Shown: one piece after another, positions 6,412-14,198 of the stretch | Layout of the letters: each line of letters begins with the position of its first letter | How positions within the stretch are numbered: position 1 is the stretch's first letter | Assembly (NCBI GenBank): GCA_947589095.1 | Contig: CANQBX010000034.1 | Span: 1 to 39,611, forward strand | Direction of reading: 5' to 3' | DNA: 39,611 bases | Origin: an uncultured Lachnospiraceae bacterium | GTDB taxonomy: Bacteria > Bacillota > Clostridia > Lachnospirales > Lachnospiraceae | Program-made: the position numbers and the translations under genes | Notes under the pieces: generated by a model | Told to the model about the DNA's origin: nothing | Databases searched by the model: none | What the model saw: the letters and a program-made list of their open reading frames with translations, nothing else

Positions 6412-6453
6412 AGCTGGCGACGGGACTCGGACCCGTGACCTCCTCACTACCAA
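6412..6453 (-). pseudogene. 3' half of host tRNA-Thr(GGT), left behind by element insertion
   Basis: Read on the minus strand this is the anticodon loop TTGGTAG followed by TGAGG, AGGTC, ACGGG-TCCGAGT-CCCGT and CGCCAGC plus a T discriminator. Joined to the 5' half at 14161-14198 it makes a perfect cloverleaf: acceptor GCTGGCG/CGCCAGC, anticodon stem CCTCA/TGAGG and T stem ACGGG/CCCGT all pair fully. It has no promoter or 5' half here and cannot be functional alone. No CCA is encoded. Confidence 0.92.
6447..6453. other. attL core (7 bp)
   Basis: CTACCAA, identical to the copy at 14161-14167. Bases diverge immediately on both sides (TCA before it here, TCC there). The core equals tRNA positions 32-38, the whole anticodon loop. 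Strand exchange must lie within it. Confidence 0.85.
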
Positions 6454-6684
6454 AAACATATAACGCTTTTTCTAACTCGTCATGTAGTTGGCTGTCTCGC
6501 CGGAATACGCTGTATCTAAGCGACTTTCCTTGTCTGTCTCGTCTCCGCTTTTGATGGTGCATTGTAACTTTAGAAACACGTTGGCAACACAAAAACAACT
6601 TGTTTCTGCTCTTGTTGCTCACGCAATATATGATAAAGTTTTATCTGCACCCTGTCAAGGATTTCTTTCTATGGATCTATAAAA
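6454..6684. other. Noncoding left end of the element
   Basis: No gene is seen. The stretch has TTGGCTGTC at 6488-6496, repeated in the same orientation near the right end (13828-13836) with similar following bases. It also has a GGCAACA motif near 6585 and its inverse near 6613. These could be integrase arm-type sites, but I cannot confirm that by eye. Confidence 0.4.
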
Positions 6685-6710
6685 GCCCCGACCGTTTAGG
6701 TCAGGGCAAT
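6685..6710. terminator. Bidirectional-looking terminator at left end of element
   Basis: GCCCCGACC (6685-6693) pairs with GGTCAGGGC (6699-6707) with one C-A mismatch. It is followed on the plus strand by a T-rich run and on the minus strand by TTTT. It lies seven bases past the stop of the gene ending at 6714, which it probably terminates. Confidence 0.7.
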
Positions 6711-6713
6711 TTT

Positions 6714-7037
6714 TTATTTCTCTGCTATCTTCTTTAGCAAGCGTATGATTTCTTCATTCTGCCGCATAAGGATAAAATTCTGTTCCACCTGTGCCCTTGC
6801 CAATTCAAGCGAGAAAGTTTCATTTGCGCTGCCAGTCAACAGACTGCCGAATGAATACATCTTGGAACCTGCCAGACTTCCGGCGATCTCTTTTGCCGAA
6901 TTGATATTCCTGCGTCTTATGTCAGCCTCGGTGTAGCTATCGAAGTCCAGTCCAAACTTCTCCATAGCCGCTCTGTCTTTTGCCTCCTGCTTTGCCTGCT
7001 TCTCAGCCGCTTTGTCCTCTGCATTTTTTCCAAACAT
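6714..7037 (-). CDS. Small hypothetical protein, element cargo
   Basis: 107 residues from the ATG at 7037, chosen because AGGAGG lies seven bases before it; a TTG at 7043 is too close to that site. The first 30 residues are highly charged (repeated K, A, E, D), then FGLDFDSYTEADIRRRNINSAKEIAG. The end is a predicted amphipathic helix, VEQNFILMRQNEEIIRLLKKIAEK, suitable for a coiled coil. There is no signal peptide or clear membrane segment. I do not recognise the family. It starts 30 bases after the gene at 7068-7634 and shares its transcript, so the two may act together. Confidence 0.65.
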   Translation of the reverse strand: MFGKNAEDKAAEKQAKQEAKDRAAMEKFGLDFDSYTEADIRRRNINSAKEIAGSLAGSKMYSFGSLLTGSANETFSLELARAQVEQNFILMRQNEEIIRLLKKIAEK

Positions 7038-7067
7038 TGCCAATCCTCCTTAGAATAATGATTTCAT

Positions 7068-7634
7068 TCAATCACAATCTACCCACATAAGGAAATCGAG
7101 CTTTTTCGCGTCTGTAAAGCCAGTATGGGGATATTTGTCATTGAACAACCTAAGTATTGTCTGCCCCTTACTAGAATCCAGATATTCATAGAACCTACTG
7201 CAAAACTCGTGATATGCCTTAATGATTTCTATACGTCGGGTAGGTATTCCCGCTCCATAGCCGGGCAGTCTCATTCTGAAATGCTCCACCGCTACGTTAT
7301 TATCCCATATCGGTCTGTTAGGATTGATAACGTGTATCAGCTTGCTTGAGAAAGATATTTCAAACCGCCCCTCGGCTTGGTTCAGATAGTCCAGCGTTTC
7401 CTCGAAAGTTGTACCTGCATCTTTCTTTTCTTCAAGATATGCGTAGAACATTTCGTAATACTGGCTTTTTCTGGAACGCATGACAAAAAAATCATTAAAC
7501 ATACGTTGGAAATCTCTGTCAGCAGATACATCTGTCCAGTAGAGGGCGTCCATTATTTTCTTATATTTCCTCATGCCGGTCAACAGCTTATCGCTATTAG
7601 ACAGTATGCTTTCGGCAGTTTGTACGCTTATCAT
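7068..7634 (-). CDS. Hypothetical alpha-helical protein, element cargo
   Basis: 188 residues from the ATG at 7634 (MISVQTAESILSNSDK). A longer frame runs to 7697, but its extra residues cross a GTACG direct repeat in the intergenic region and look untranslated. The mostly helical protein has a conserved-looking segment SKLIHVINPNRPIWDNNVAVEHF, which resembles the K-x-x-H-x-x-N-P...P-I-W-D motif of small helical proteins distantly like HhH-type glycosylases; that link is only an impression. No membrane segment is seen. It heads a two-gene minus-strand unit divergent from the ribbon-helix-helix gene at 7816. Its position at the element end marks it as cargo, perhaps defensive, but function is unknown. 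Confidence 0.65.
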   Translation of the reverse strand: MISVQTAESILSNSDKLLTGMRKYKKIMDALYWTDVSADRDFQRMFNDFFVMRSRKSQYYEMFYAYLEEKKDAGTTFEETLDYLNQAEGRFEISFSSKLIHVINPNRPIWDNNVAVEHFRMRLPGYGAGIPTRRIEIIKAYHEFCSRFYEYLDSSKGQTILRLFNDKYPHTGFTDAKKLDFLMWVDCD

Positions 7635-7815
7635 GGTATCTAACCAACTCCCTGTACGATTTTTGTACGGTATTACCACTAGACACCATGTTATCACAAC
7701 TCAATGCAAAAGTCTATTGTATTTTCACATCTAATTCCAACGCATTTTGTGTTATAGATTCAGAATAACGACACACTCTATAATGTACTCAAAAGGTATG
7801 GAGGAATTGAGACTT

Positions 7816-7995
7816 ATGGACAAATTTGTTGTCGTTCCGAAGGAGGACAAGGCTGTTACCATGACTATCCGGATTGACCGAGCCTTGCAGGAGAAGTATA
7901 ACGAGCTTTCCGCACGCACCAACCGTTCCCGAAACGAGCTGATTGGAATGGCTCTGCAATATGCCCTCGATCACATGGAGATTAAAGATGAATAG
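7816..7995 (+). CDS. Ribbon-helix-helix (CopG/Arc-type) DNA-binding protein
   Basis: 59 residues from the ATG at 7816; GGAGG lies 11 bases upstream, a little far. The core TMTIRIDRALQEKYNELSAR is an RHH beta strand and first helix, followed by TNRSRNELIGMALQYALDHM as the second helix. These form DNA-binding dimers. It is the only plus-strand gene of the element, divergent from the cargo pair, with a TATAAT at 7779-7784. A role as repressor of the divergent promoters is likely by position but not shown. An upstream ATG at 7786 could extend it by ten residues. Confidence 0.75.
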   Translation: MDKFVVVPKEDKAVTMTIRIDRALQEKYNELSARTNRSRNELIGMALQYALDHMEIKDE

Positions 7996-8004
7996 CAATA
8001 AACA

Positions 8005-13483: not shown

Positions 13484-13512
13484 ATCTATACCTCCAAATT
13501 ATTTTTGAACGC

Positions 13513-13546
13513 AAAAAAAGAGCCAATGTCTTCTCGACACTCGCTC
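13513..13546 (-). terminator. Terminator or attenuator in the leader of the Rep-like gene
   Basis: On the minus strand GAGCGAGTGTC (13546-13536) pairs with GACATTGGCTC (13530-13520) with one mismatch and one G-T pair, followed by seven Ts. It lies only 30 bases before the GTG start. It can block readthrough from the tRNA promoter into the element, or act as an attenuator for Rep. Confidence 0.7.
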
Positions 13547-13560
13547 TACTAAGCACTTAA

Positions 13561-13975
13561 TATTTTTGACACTTTTTCTGCTTATTCTTTATTATACGAC
13601 CTTTCTTTATTAAAGGCAACAGGTTTTTGAAATATTTTTTATATTTTTTTCTGGCTTTTGCCAGCTTTGTTTTTCTTTCCTAAAATTCAAATACGGTTCT
13701 AAGCCCCTAGAAGCCGCCTAGAATCGATTTTAATATAAATCTGGAAATTTCATGCAGAAAAGGATATAAAAAGAAAATAACCGCCTTTCCGCAGGTAATA
13801 TCCATGAATAGAAAAGGAGCCTTATATTTGGCTGTCAGTCTCCGAATAGCGTTCAAATTTGTCTGGCAACAAAATGGTCACAAATTTGGATTTCCTAAAA
13901 GTAGCAACACAACGCTATACAAAAATCCTCGTCCAAAAAAGAGAATGTTATCCGTTCGTCTTTCTCCCAGAAAGA
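13561..13975. other. Noncoding right end of the element
   Basis: No gene is supported in these 415 bases. They hold a small hairpin CTGGC-TTTT-GCCAG (13651-13664) followed on the plus strand by a T-rich run; three TTCTAGG-like repeats on the minus strand near 13700-13725; the direct repeat TTGGCTGTC (13828-13836) shared with the left end; and GGCAACA/GCAACAC motifs near 13614, 13865 and 13903. The Rep-gene promoter and integrase arm sites probably lie here. Confidence 0.45.
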
Positions 13976-14017
13976 AATAAAGACCTTTCGAGGATAATTC
14001 CTCAAAAAGCCTTTATT
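13976..14017 (-). terminator. Long hairpin ending the element tRNA transcript
   Basis: On the minus strand an 18-base arm (14017-14000) pairs along its whole length with 13993-13976, using three G-U pairs, around the loop AATTAT. A T/C-rich stretch follows. It begins 15 bases past the 3' end of the tRNA at 14033-14105. Confidence 0.65.
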
Positions 14018-14032
14018 CTCGCCAGTTTCGAG

Positions 14033-14105
14033 AGCTACCTAGCGGACTTGAACCGCCGACCTCATCCTTACCAAGGATGCGCGCTACCGACTGCGCCAAG
14101 GTAGC
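14033..14105 (-). tRNA. tRNA-Thr(GGT), complete, carried inside the element
   Basis: 73 bases fold as a standard cloverleaf: acceptor GCTACCT/AGGTAGC (7 of 7), D arm GCGC...GCGC, anticodon stem CATCC/GGATG with loop TTGGTAA (anticodon GGT), variable loop AGGTC, T arm GGCGG-TTCAAGT-CCGCT with one G-T pair, discriminator T. No CCA is encoded. It lies 20 bases after the chimeric tRNA and is probably transcribed from the same host promoter at 14257. It differs in all stems from the interrupted host tRNA-Thr, so it is not a recent duplicate. Confidence 0.95.
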
Positions 14106-14125
14106 TTGGAAACATAAAACTCTGG

Positions 14126-14198
14126 AGCTGCTAGCCAGATTCGAACTGGCGACCTCATCCCTACCAATGAGGTGCGCTACCGCCTGTGCCACGCCAGC
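14126..14198 (-). pseudogene. Chimeric tRNA-Thr(GGT) at attR: host 5' half joined to element 3' half
   Basis: The 5' half (14198-14161) is the host gene; the 3' half (14160-14126) came with the element and encodes a CCA (14125-14123). D and T arms and the GGT anticodon loop are intact. The acceptor GCTGGCG/TAGCAGC has a G-G and a C-A mismatch and a G-T pair, and the anticodon stem CCTCA/GGATG has two mismatches. The element half would pair instead with a tRNA-Thr starting GCTGCTA with a CATCC anticodon arm, presumably from an earlier host. The chimera is therefore probably poor or inactive. Confidence 0.85.
14161..14167. other. attR core (7 bp)
   Basis: CTACCAA, the second copy of the attachment core, at the junction of the host 5' tRNA half and the element-borne 3' half. 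Confidence 0.85.

Follow-up and report, generated by a model that had tools for sequence, protein, structure and literature searches.

A 7.7-kb integrative element that splits a tRNA-Thr(GGT) gene of a Lachnospiraceae bacterium and appears to supply a replacement tRNA

The DNA analysed here (the window, 39,611 nt) is positions 1 to 39,611 of contig CANQBX010000034.1 in the draft assembly GCA_947589095.1 of an uncultured Lachnospiraceae bacterium, and it harbours a putative integrative element inserted in a gene for threonine transfer RNA with the anticodon GGT, tRNA-Thr(GGT). Coordinates refer to the window, and features lie on the minus strand unless stated otherwise. The host gene is present as a 5′ half (14161-14198) and a displaced 3′ half (6412-6453), each including one copy of a 7-bp core, TTGGTAG, which forms the anticodon loop and lies at 14161-14167 in the right attachment site (attR) and at 6447-6453 in the left (attL). 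This core is common to both ends, the adjacent bases differ and the element measures 7,714 bp from core to core. When joined at TTGGTAG, 14161-14198 and 6412-6453 yield a tRNA-Thr(GGT) of 74 bases (ARAGORN) with zero mispairs in the acceptor, anticodon and T stems by in silico pairing and one D-stem position drawn unpaired by ARAGORN. The first-pass annotation had proposed that the two host halves rebuild a tRNA-Thr and share only the seven-base anticodon loop; both claims held, the overlap being exactly TTGGTAG.

Empty sites were found within the genus. The tRNA-Thr(GGT) gene was uninterrupted in 17/17 same-genus genomes in which it lay in the fetched loci; relative to the rejoined 74-mer it was identical in ten (in both its 5′ and its 3′ half), had one base changed in two and five or six changed in the other five. 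Because the joined halves are identical to the intact gene of relatives, a chance origin of two rejoinable halves is excluded. An uninterrupted gene had been predicted between a DUF4397 gene and glnS, and these three lay together on one fetched stretch in ten same-genus genomes, with order and orientation as in the window in three (G017, G010 and G007); in G003 they are present in a different order. In six same-genus relatives (L039, L041, L042, L044, L049 and L052), the tRNA gene is flipped relative to glnS and DUF4397, suggestive of an inversion of the tRNA segment. The empty sites, and the 12 related-integrase loci described below, agree in supporting a tyrosine-integrase element that was inserted at the anticodon loop and whose ends are defined to the 7-bp core, as first proposed.

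The flanks of the split gene retain probable expression signals. A site scan listed a promoter-like site of the host tRNA at 14229-14257, with similar upstream sequence in relatives by eye, which now stands ahead of both tRNA-like genes at the right end. On the other side, a hairpin at 6360-6398 is probably the host tRNA terminator; it was recognised by eye, as were similar hairpins in some relatives, and is not listed by the terminator consensus scan. The earlier pairing of a promoter at 14257 with a terminator at 6360-6398 stands for the promoter-like site and, for the terminator, as far as the hairpin seen by eye. Within the element, a further promoter-like site (6658-6630, minus strand, 11/12 matches) is directed at the displaced host 3′ half.

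The first-pass annotation implied an ordinary tRNA insertion; the insertion stands, and what was overlooked is that the target is not restored and that the right end holds two tRNA-like genes (ARAGORN: 14123-14198 and 14032-14105), a pseudo-tRNA and a whole cargo tRNA. The pseudo-tRNA at attR is a hybrid (14126-14198; ARAGORN, Rfam and pairing) of the host 5′ half and an element-borne tRNA-Thr 3′ half (14126-14160), which, by pairing and site search, fits the tRNA-Thr of some other genomes and not that of the present host. With non-standard pairs, the hybrid scores 33.4 bits in Rfam (gathering score 29) and, with G-U allowed, has two acceptor-stem and two anticodon-stem mispairs, compared with none in the rejoined tRNA or in the cargo tRNA. 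Judged from this pairing, a functional target tRNA is probably rebuilt at neither junction, because the 3′ half in the attachment site of the element (attP) fits tRNAs of another host lineage. ARAGORN calls the hybrid tRNA-Pro(TGG) at 14123-14198, a call that is spurious because the hybrid was formed at an attachment-site junction; such a hybrid, passing the Rfam threshold, is a source of false tRNA calls.

The cargo tRNA, termed R1 (14032-14105; ARAGORN; Rfam 66.9 bits), is a complete tRNA-Thr(GGT) and the presumed replacement. It shares isotype and anticodon with the host's own tRNA-Thr(GGT) and differs from it in sequence, and its anticodon loop, TTGGTAA, is the core TTGGTAG with one base changed. 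R1 is separated from the hybrid by 20 bases and from the core by 55 bp, and no promoter-like site between hybrid and R1 appears in the scan that listed the host site. A strong hairpin 3′ of R1 (13977-14016; z = -5.4) is a possible terminator of the tRNA transcript, and similar sequence was seen by eye after the tRNA in relatives.

R1 is the sole intact tRNA-Thr(GGT) found in the draft genome (192 contigs, 97.6% complete). A 3′-half pattern had three matches in this genome, all within the window (host 3′ half, R1 and element half), and no match to the 3′- or 5′-half pattern was found elsewhere in the draft. The genome has 38 Rfam tRNA matches, of which ARAGORN called 37, none of them a further GGT; the 38th is a contig-end fragment with no ARAGORN call. 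Among 25 same-genus relatives, the 3′-half pattern had exactly one match in 21 and none in four. Across 397 family genomes, the 5′-half pattern, tallied by hand from the rows, had one match in 343, two in 22 (the own genome among them; some of the second matches are unlike tRNA) and none in 32. The split gene appears to have been the host's only tRNA for two threonine codons. Of 346 threonine codons counted in the window, over 14 long host frames running from stop to stop, 172 are ACC, the commonest, and 199 are ACC or ACT.

We consider it very probable that a 7.7-kb integrative element has split an apparently single-copy tRNA-Thr(GGT) gene, has failed to rebuild it and supplies a whole replacement tRNA. 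Failed restoration plus a replacement tRNA, beyond the insertion itself, is the main content of the locus. In the mechanism that we propose, the integrase would recombine the core within the anticodon loop of the host tRNA-Thr(GGT); the captured host promoter (14257-14229) would then read through the hybrid into R1, placed directly downstream by integration, and the hairpin at 13977-14016 would end the hybrid-R1 transcript. R1 would replace the lost isoacceptor, and the host would survive the split thanks to the complete tRNA-Thr(GGT) that came with the element. If R1 is needed, its loss would be lethal, and the element would act like an addiction module without a toxin.

Related elements show the same arrangement in other hosts. 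The integrase query returned 18 loci in the genome collection, of which 12 were examined (L117-L128, 49-86% identity) and six were left out (L129-L134, 24-27%), as were two weak viral loci; among the 12 examined, tRNA-Thr(GGT), or half of the gene, lies at one end in 12/12. Including the window, these 13 elements comprise seven that replace the target tRNA, five that restore it and one (L123) with one end seen. The replacing kind consists of the window, L118, L119 and L121, all with R1; L122 and L124, which carry a cargo tRNA termed R2 and share 95-96% identity along two stretches; and L117, which has cargo R3 at its other end, found on a second contig. The restoring kind consists of L125, L126, L127, L128, whose far end is outside view, and L120, assigned to this mode by inference from a second contig. 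Each of the other six replacing elements shows a host 5′ half, then a non-fitting stretch and, past the core at a distance of 34-36 bp, an entire tRNA-Thr(GGT); the hybrids of these six have no Rfam match at E<=1, their cargo tRNAs score 66.2-67.6 bits, and in 5/6 of their hosts no further GGT 5′-half match was found. R1 is identical (74/74) in the window, L118, L119 and L121, and the longest aligned stretch of these elements, integrase included, is about 75% identical. An equal-rate estimate for an unchanged R1 gives 0.746^74 ~ 4e-10, to be read with the proviso that tRNAs are conserved anyway and that recapture is possible.

Both modes occur on a single integrase tree, with at least three switches of mode over the 11 rows scored (L128 left out). 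The restoring L127 and the replacing L118 have 92.6% identity along 2.5 kb that include the serine recombinase and integrase genes, yet their first 160-300 bp do not align. In L125, a restored tRNA is followed by an apparent remnant of another. In the other replacing elements, the stretch after the core is no longer a tRNA half and contains a shared CAGCAGTTCAA, which might represent a relic or else an arm site for the integrase and fits either direction of change. The order of events is testable because both modes sit on one tree and a foreign tRNA half is still present in the window. The idea that a changed core shields the cargo tRNA from re-integration proved not to be general, as R1 and R3 have TTGGTAA but R2 keeps TTGGTAG; it is also weakened by the host 3′ half itself, which has TTGGTAA in L119, L123, L125 and L126.

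The tRNA parts of the element have counterparts in other genomes. Four genomes in which the element is not in view (G182, G216, G305 and G405) have a tRNA-Thr(GGT) that equals R1 over 73-74 bases. In G305, the likeness to the element extends past the tRNA (90-92% over about 135 bp), and no homolog of the element proteins was found within the 17 kb fetched; this genome could be either a donor or the keeper of an element remnant. A site search with the element 3′ half matched 8/329 genomes, own genome included; the sites in the seven others have 2-3 mismatches, loop base uncounted, and the closest differs, besides the loop base, in one T-stem pair exchanged on both sides. When paired with 44 distinct tRNA-Thr(GGT), a non-random set in which some loci had been fetched for likeness to the element half or R1, the half gave zero acceptor and anticodon mispairs with five, 1-5 with the other 39, and four with its own host. 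The attP half of the window would thus apparently work in another lineage.

Several observations weigh against R1 being an expressed and necessary replacement. The hybrid exceeds the Rfam gathering score, and residual function may persist. The consensus scan lists no terminator behind R1, the hairpin at 13977-14016 included, and neither a circular form nor tRNA expression is visible here, mobility and expression being inferred. The conservation of R1 may partly reflect general tRNA conservation or repeated capture, the latter conceivable because R1 equals the tRNA of other genomes. The draft genome could miss another GGT gene, tRNA-Thr(TGT) being uncalled too. Finally, the host of L119 (G741) has an extra tRNA-Thr(GGT) 5′-half match elsewhere (G741:C135:9858-9878), which represents either a second gene or contamination of that draft.

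The alternative that survives best, and which we nevertheless regard as improbable, is a restoring element of the classic type, in which the hybrid (14126-14198) is functional and R1 is incidental cargo, for instance against anticodon nucleases or for codon supply. Its appeal lies in the attP half, which is a genuine 3′ half of a tRNA-Thr and with which certain other hosts would regain a paired tRNA, in the related L126 and L127, which restore in just such a manner, and in the Rfam score of the hybrid. In the present host, however, the four stem mispairs argue against a functional hybrid, and in the six related elements with unrecognised hybrids the task must fall to the cargo tRNA, unless the host can do without the isoacceptor or has an extra copy. 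Tandem tRNA-Thr(GGT) genes are known in a few genomes of the family, such as G193 and G228, and R1 might accordingly be an old tandem gene of the host whose neighbour was merely split by the element. We find this very hard to sustain: R1 lies inside the attachment-site boundaries and occurs unchanged at the corresponding position in L118, L119 and L121, whose hosts are different, the empty sites of 17 genomes are without it, and no second GGT match or R1 3′ half was found in 25 same-genus relatives (four of them without any match). A mis-join of element and flanks is conceivable in a draft of 192 contigs and is likewise most unlikely, given that the junctions fall precisely in the anticodon loop, a placement shared by related elements from other assemblies, including that of the named strain Bilifractor porci (L125).

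Beyond the replacement of a split tRNA, we suggest, with slightly more doubt than confidence, that the element works as a dual-mode integrator, a form of host-range insurance. The attP half would rebuild tRNA-Thr in hosts of the GCTGCTA...CATCC type, and the spare whole tRNA, captured with its downstream sequence from another lineage and driven by the host promoter, would cover other hosts with the same loop. The modes would switch by exchange of end modules, tRNA genes and their fossils would move between genera, and hosts might come to depend on a foreign tRNA.

Other arrangements bear a resemblance to these loci. A sister clade (L137, L138 and L157), with an integrase 61-62% identical and the same gene order, is located at unrelated places; no tRNA gene was seen at its ends (ARAGORN run on L137 and L138 only) and no direct repeat of >=9 bp was found near them, which suggests low target specificity. 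A contig from a viral collection (L200:12907-13127) has two tandem tRNA-Thr(GGT) 5′ halves, each with its following stretch (81-bp repeat), and then a whole tRNA-Thr(GGT), a pattern that resembles either a ladder of scars from integration or a duplication in tandem. This contig has an integrase of its own, with only 21% identity. In G107 (L187, L230) and G062 (L204, L233), a broken tRNA-Thr(GGT) 5′ half is likewise followed by a whole gene. No homolog of the element was found in the fetched stretches of these two genomes, which for this reason were not counted among the replacing elements and are possibly independent cases.

The element has a G+C content of 41%, compared with 58% in the flanks (3 kb per side). 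It encodes a tyrosine integrase of 437 amino acids (aa) (8043-9356; PF00589, 5.6e-20; PF14659, 3.1e-14) and a small serine recombinase with a resolvase domain (220 aa, 9356-10018; PF00239, 1.3e-25), whose gene runs into the start of the integrase. The recombinase has 87-93% identity in six related loci and 79% in L125, and no homolog of it was found in L122, L124 or L126. Further genes encode an excisionase-like helix-turn-helix protein (10658-11017; PF12728, 2.3e-6; TIGR01764, 3.7e-8), a conserved 212-aa protein with homologs in related elements (11063-11701), a 104-aa DUF5681 protein (11729-12043; PF18932, 1.2e-8) and a conserved 336-aa protein of no clear family (12473-13483), also with homologs in related elements. 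The last had no Pfam, PHROGs or PADLOC match and one weak NCBIfam match (DnaB-type, E 0.005, far below cut-off); that it is a replication protein is a guess. The plus strand carries a gene for a small Arc/RelB-like DNA-binding protein (7816-7995; PHROGs Arc-like repressor, 1.5e-5). This gene is better conserved than the integrase, with 86-93% identity across eight related loci and 70% in L125, and it sits at the opposite end, near the tRNA, in L122, L124, L125 and L126. Two accessory proteins complete the set, one of 209 aa (7068-7697; homologs in three other compared loci, L139, L121 and L125) and one of 109 aa (6714-7043; 97% identical in L121 only).

A broadly kept gene order runs from the 336-aa protein through a small protein, the DUF5681 protein, the 212-aa protein, the excisionase-like protein, two small proteins and the serine recombinase to the integrase, followed by the Arc-like gene on the opposite strand; L122, L124 and L126 are without several of these genes, and relatives of the element span 4.9-8.2 kb. 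Ten element proteins were scanned in Pfam, NCBIfam and PHROGs, two small open reading frames (75 and 82 aa) being left out. Among these ten, no phage structural or lysis gene was recognisable, apart from a weak terminase-small match of the DUF5681 protein (E 0.002), and no relaxase or type IV secretion family was found (Pfam, NCBIfam), the 336-aa protein remaining without a family. A phage or plasmid relative in annotated collections was rejected, the best phage match covering 6% of the element and the best plasmid match 1%, as was known defence cargo, PADLOC on five proteins returning one match (E 0.003) to a methylase model.

The arrangement parallels tRNA-dependent lysogeny, shown in actinobacteriophages (Fionnbharth, Gaia and cluster L; Guerrero-Bustamante and Hatfull, PMC10865867), in which, as described there, the core is short, the tRNA is not rebuilt and a phage tRNA of the same isotype is required. 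The same account states that related actinobacteriophages use either mode, calls the evolutionary relation to restoring systems unclear and, in 2024, held that prevalence beyond actinobacteriophages needed study. Common to both are a tyrosine integrase, a short core in a tRNA gene (8-17 bp there, 7 bp here), a host tRNA that is not rebuilt, a whole tRNA of the same isotype and related integrases occurring with restoring and complementing systems (PMC10865867). In the window we find an integrase with a split tRNA, core junctions at which, judged by pairing, no functional tRNA is rebuilt, a cargo tRNA of the same anticodon and an apparently single-copy target; the structural and lysis genes of a temperate phage are not among the genes recognised in it. 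The actinobacteriophages are temperate phages studied by experiment, and the tRNA of Fionnbharth, which overlaps gene 37, is equipped with a promoter of its own (PMC10865867). The 7.7-kb element, by contrast, is known from sequence and has no recognisable phage structural genes, and the cargo tRNA lies behind the host promoter, 34-55 bp past the core in the window and its relatives. The cargo tRNA, moreover, is not the same in all relatives, and a foreign 3′ half stays in the attP of the window.

The Rhizobium phage vTRX32-1 family has a 12-bp core in tRNA-Leu and a whole phage tRNA-Leu, presumed to be a replacement (PMC8631192); the likeness lies in the whole cargo tRNA of the split type, and the difference in that family being phage and its tRNA being tRNA-Leu. 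Its cargo is described as having no core motif, taken to block re-integration (PMC8631192), whereas R1 is one base off and R2 keeps the core. The Lj965 prophage of Lactobacillus johnsonii, as cited in PMC10865867, likewise reportedly does not rebuild its tRNA and encodes the cognate tRNA, and differs in being a prophage. With Islander-type genomic islands, the element shares the tRNA target, the tyrosine integrase, the anticodon-loop crossover and the displaced 3′ fragment (PMC4383910), here at the far end (6412-6453) with the integrase internal (8043-9356); in those islands the attP half restores the target (PMC4383910), whereas here it forms four mispairs with the host. In the open-licence literature searched, we found no report of a replacement-tRNA strategy in a non-phage element or in Lachnospiraceae. 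As we read the locus, it is a known strategy of some phages, used here by an element without recognisable phage structural genes.

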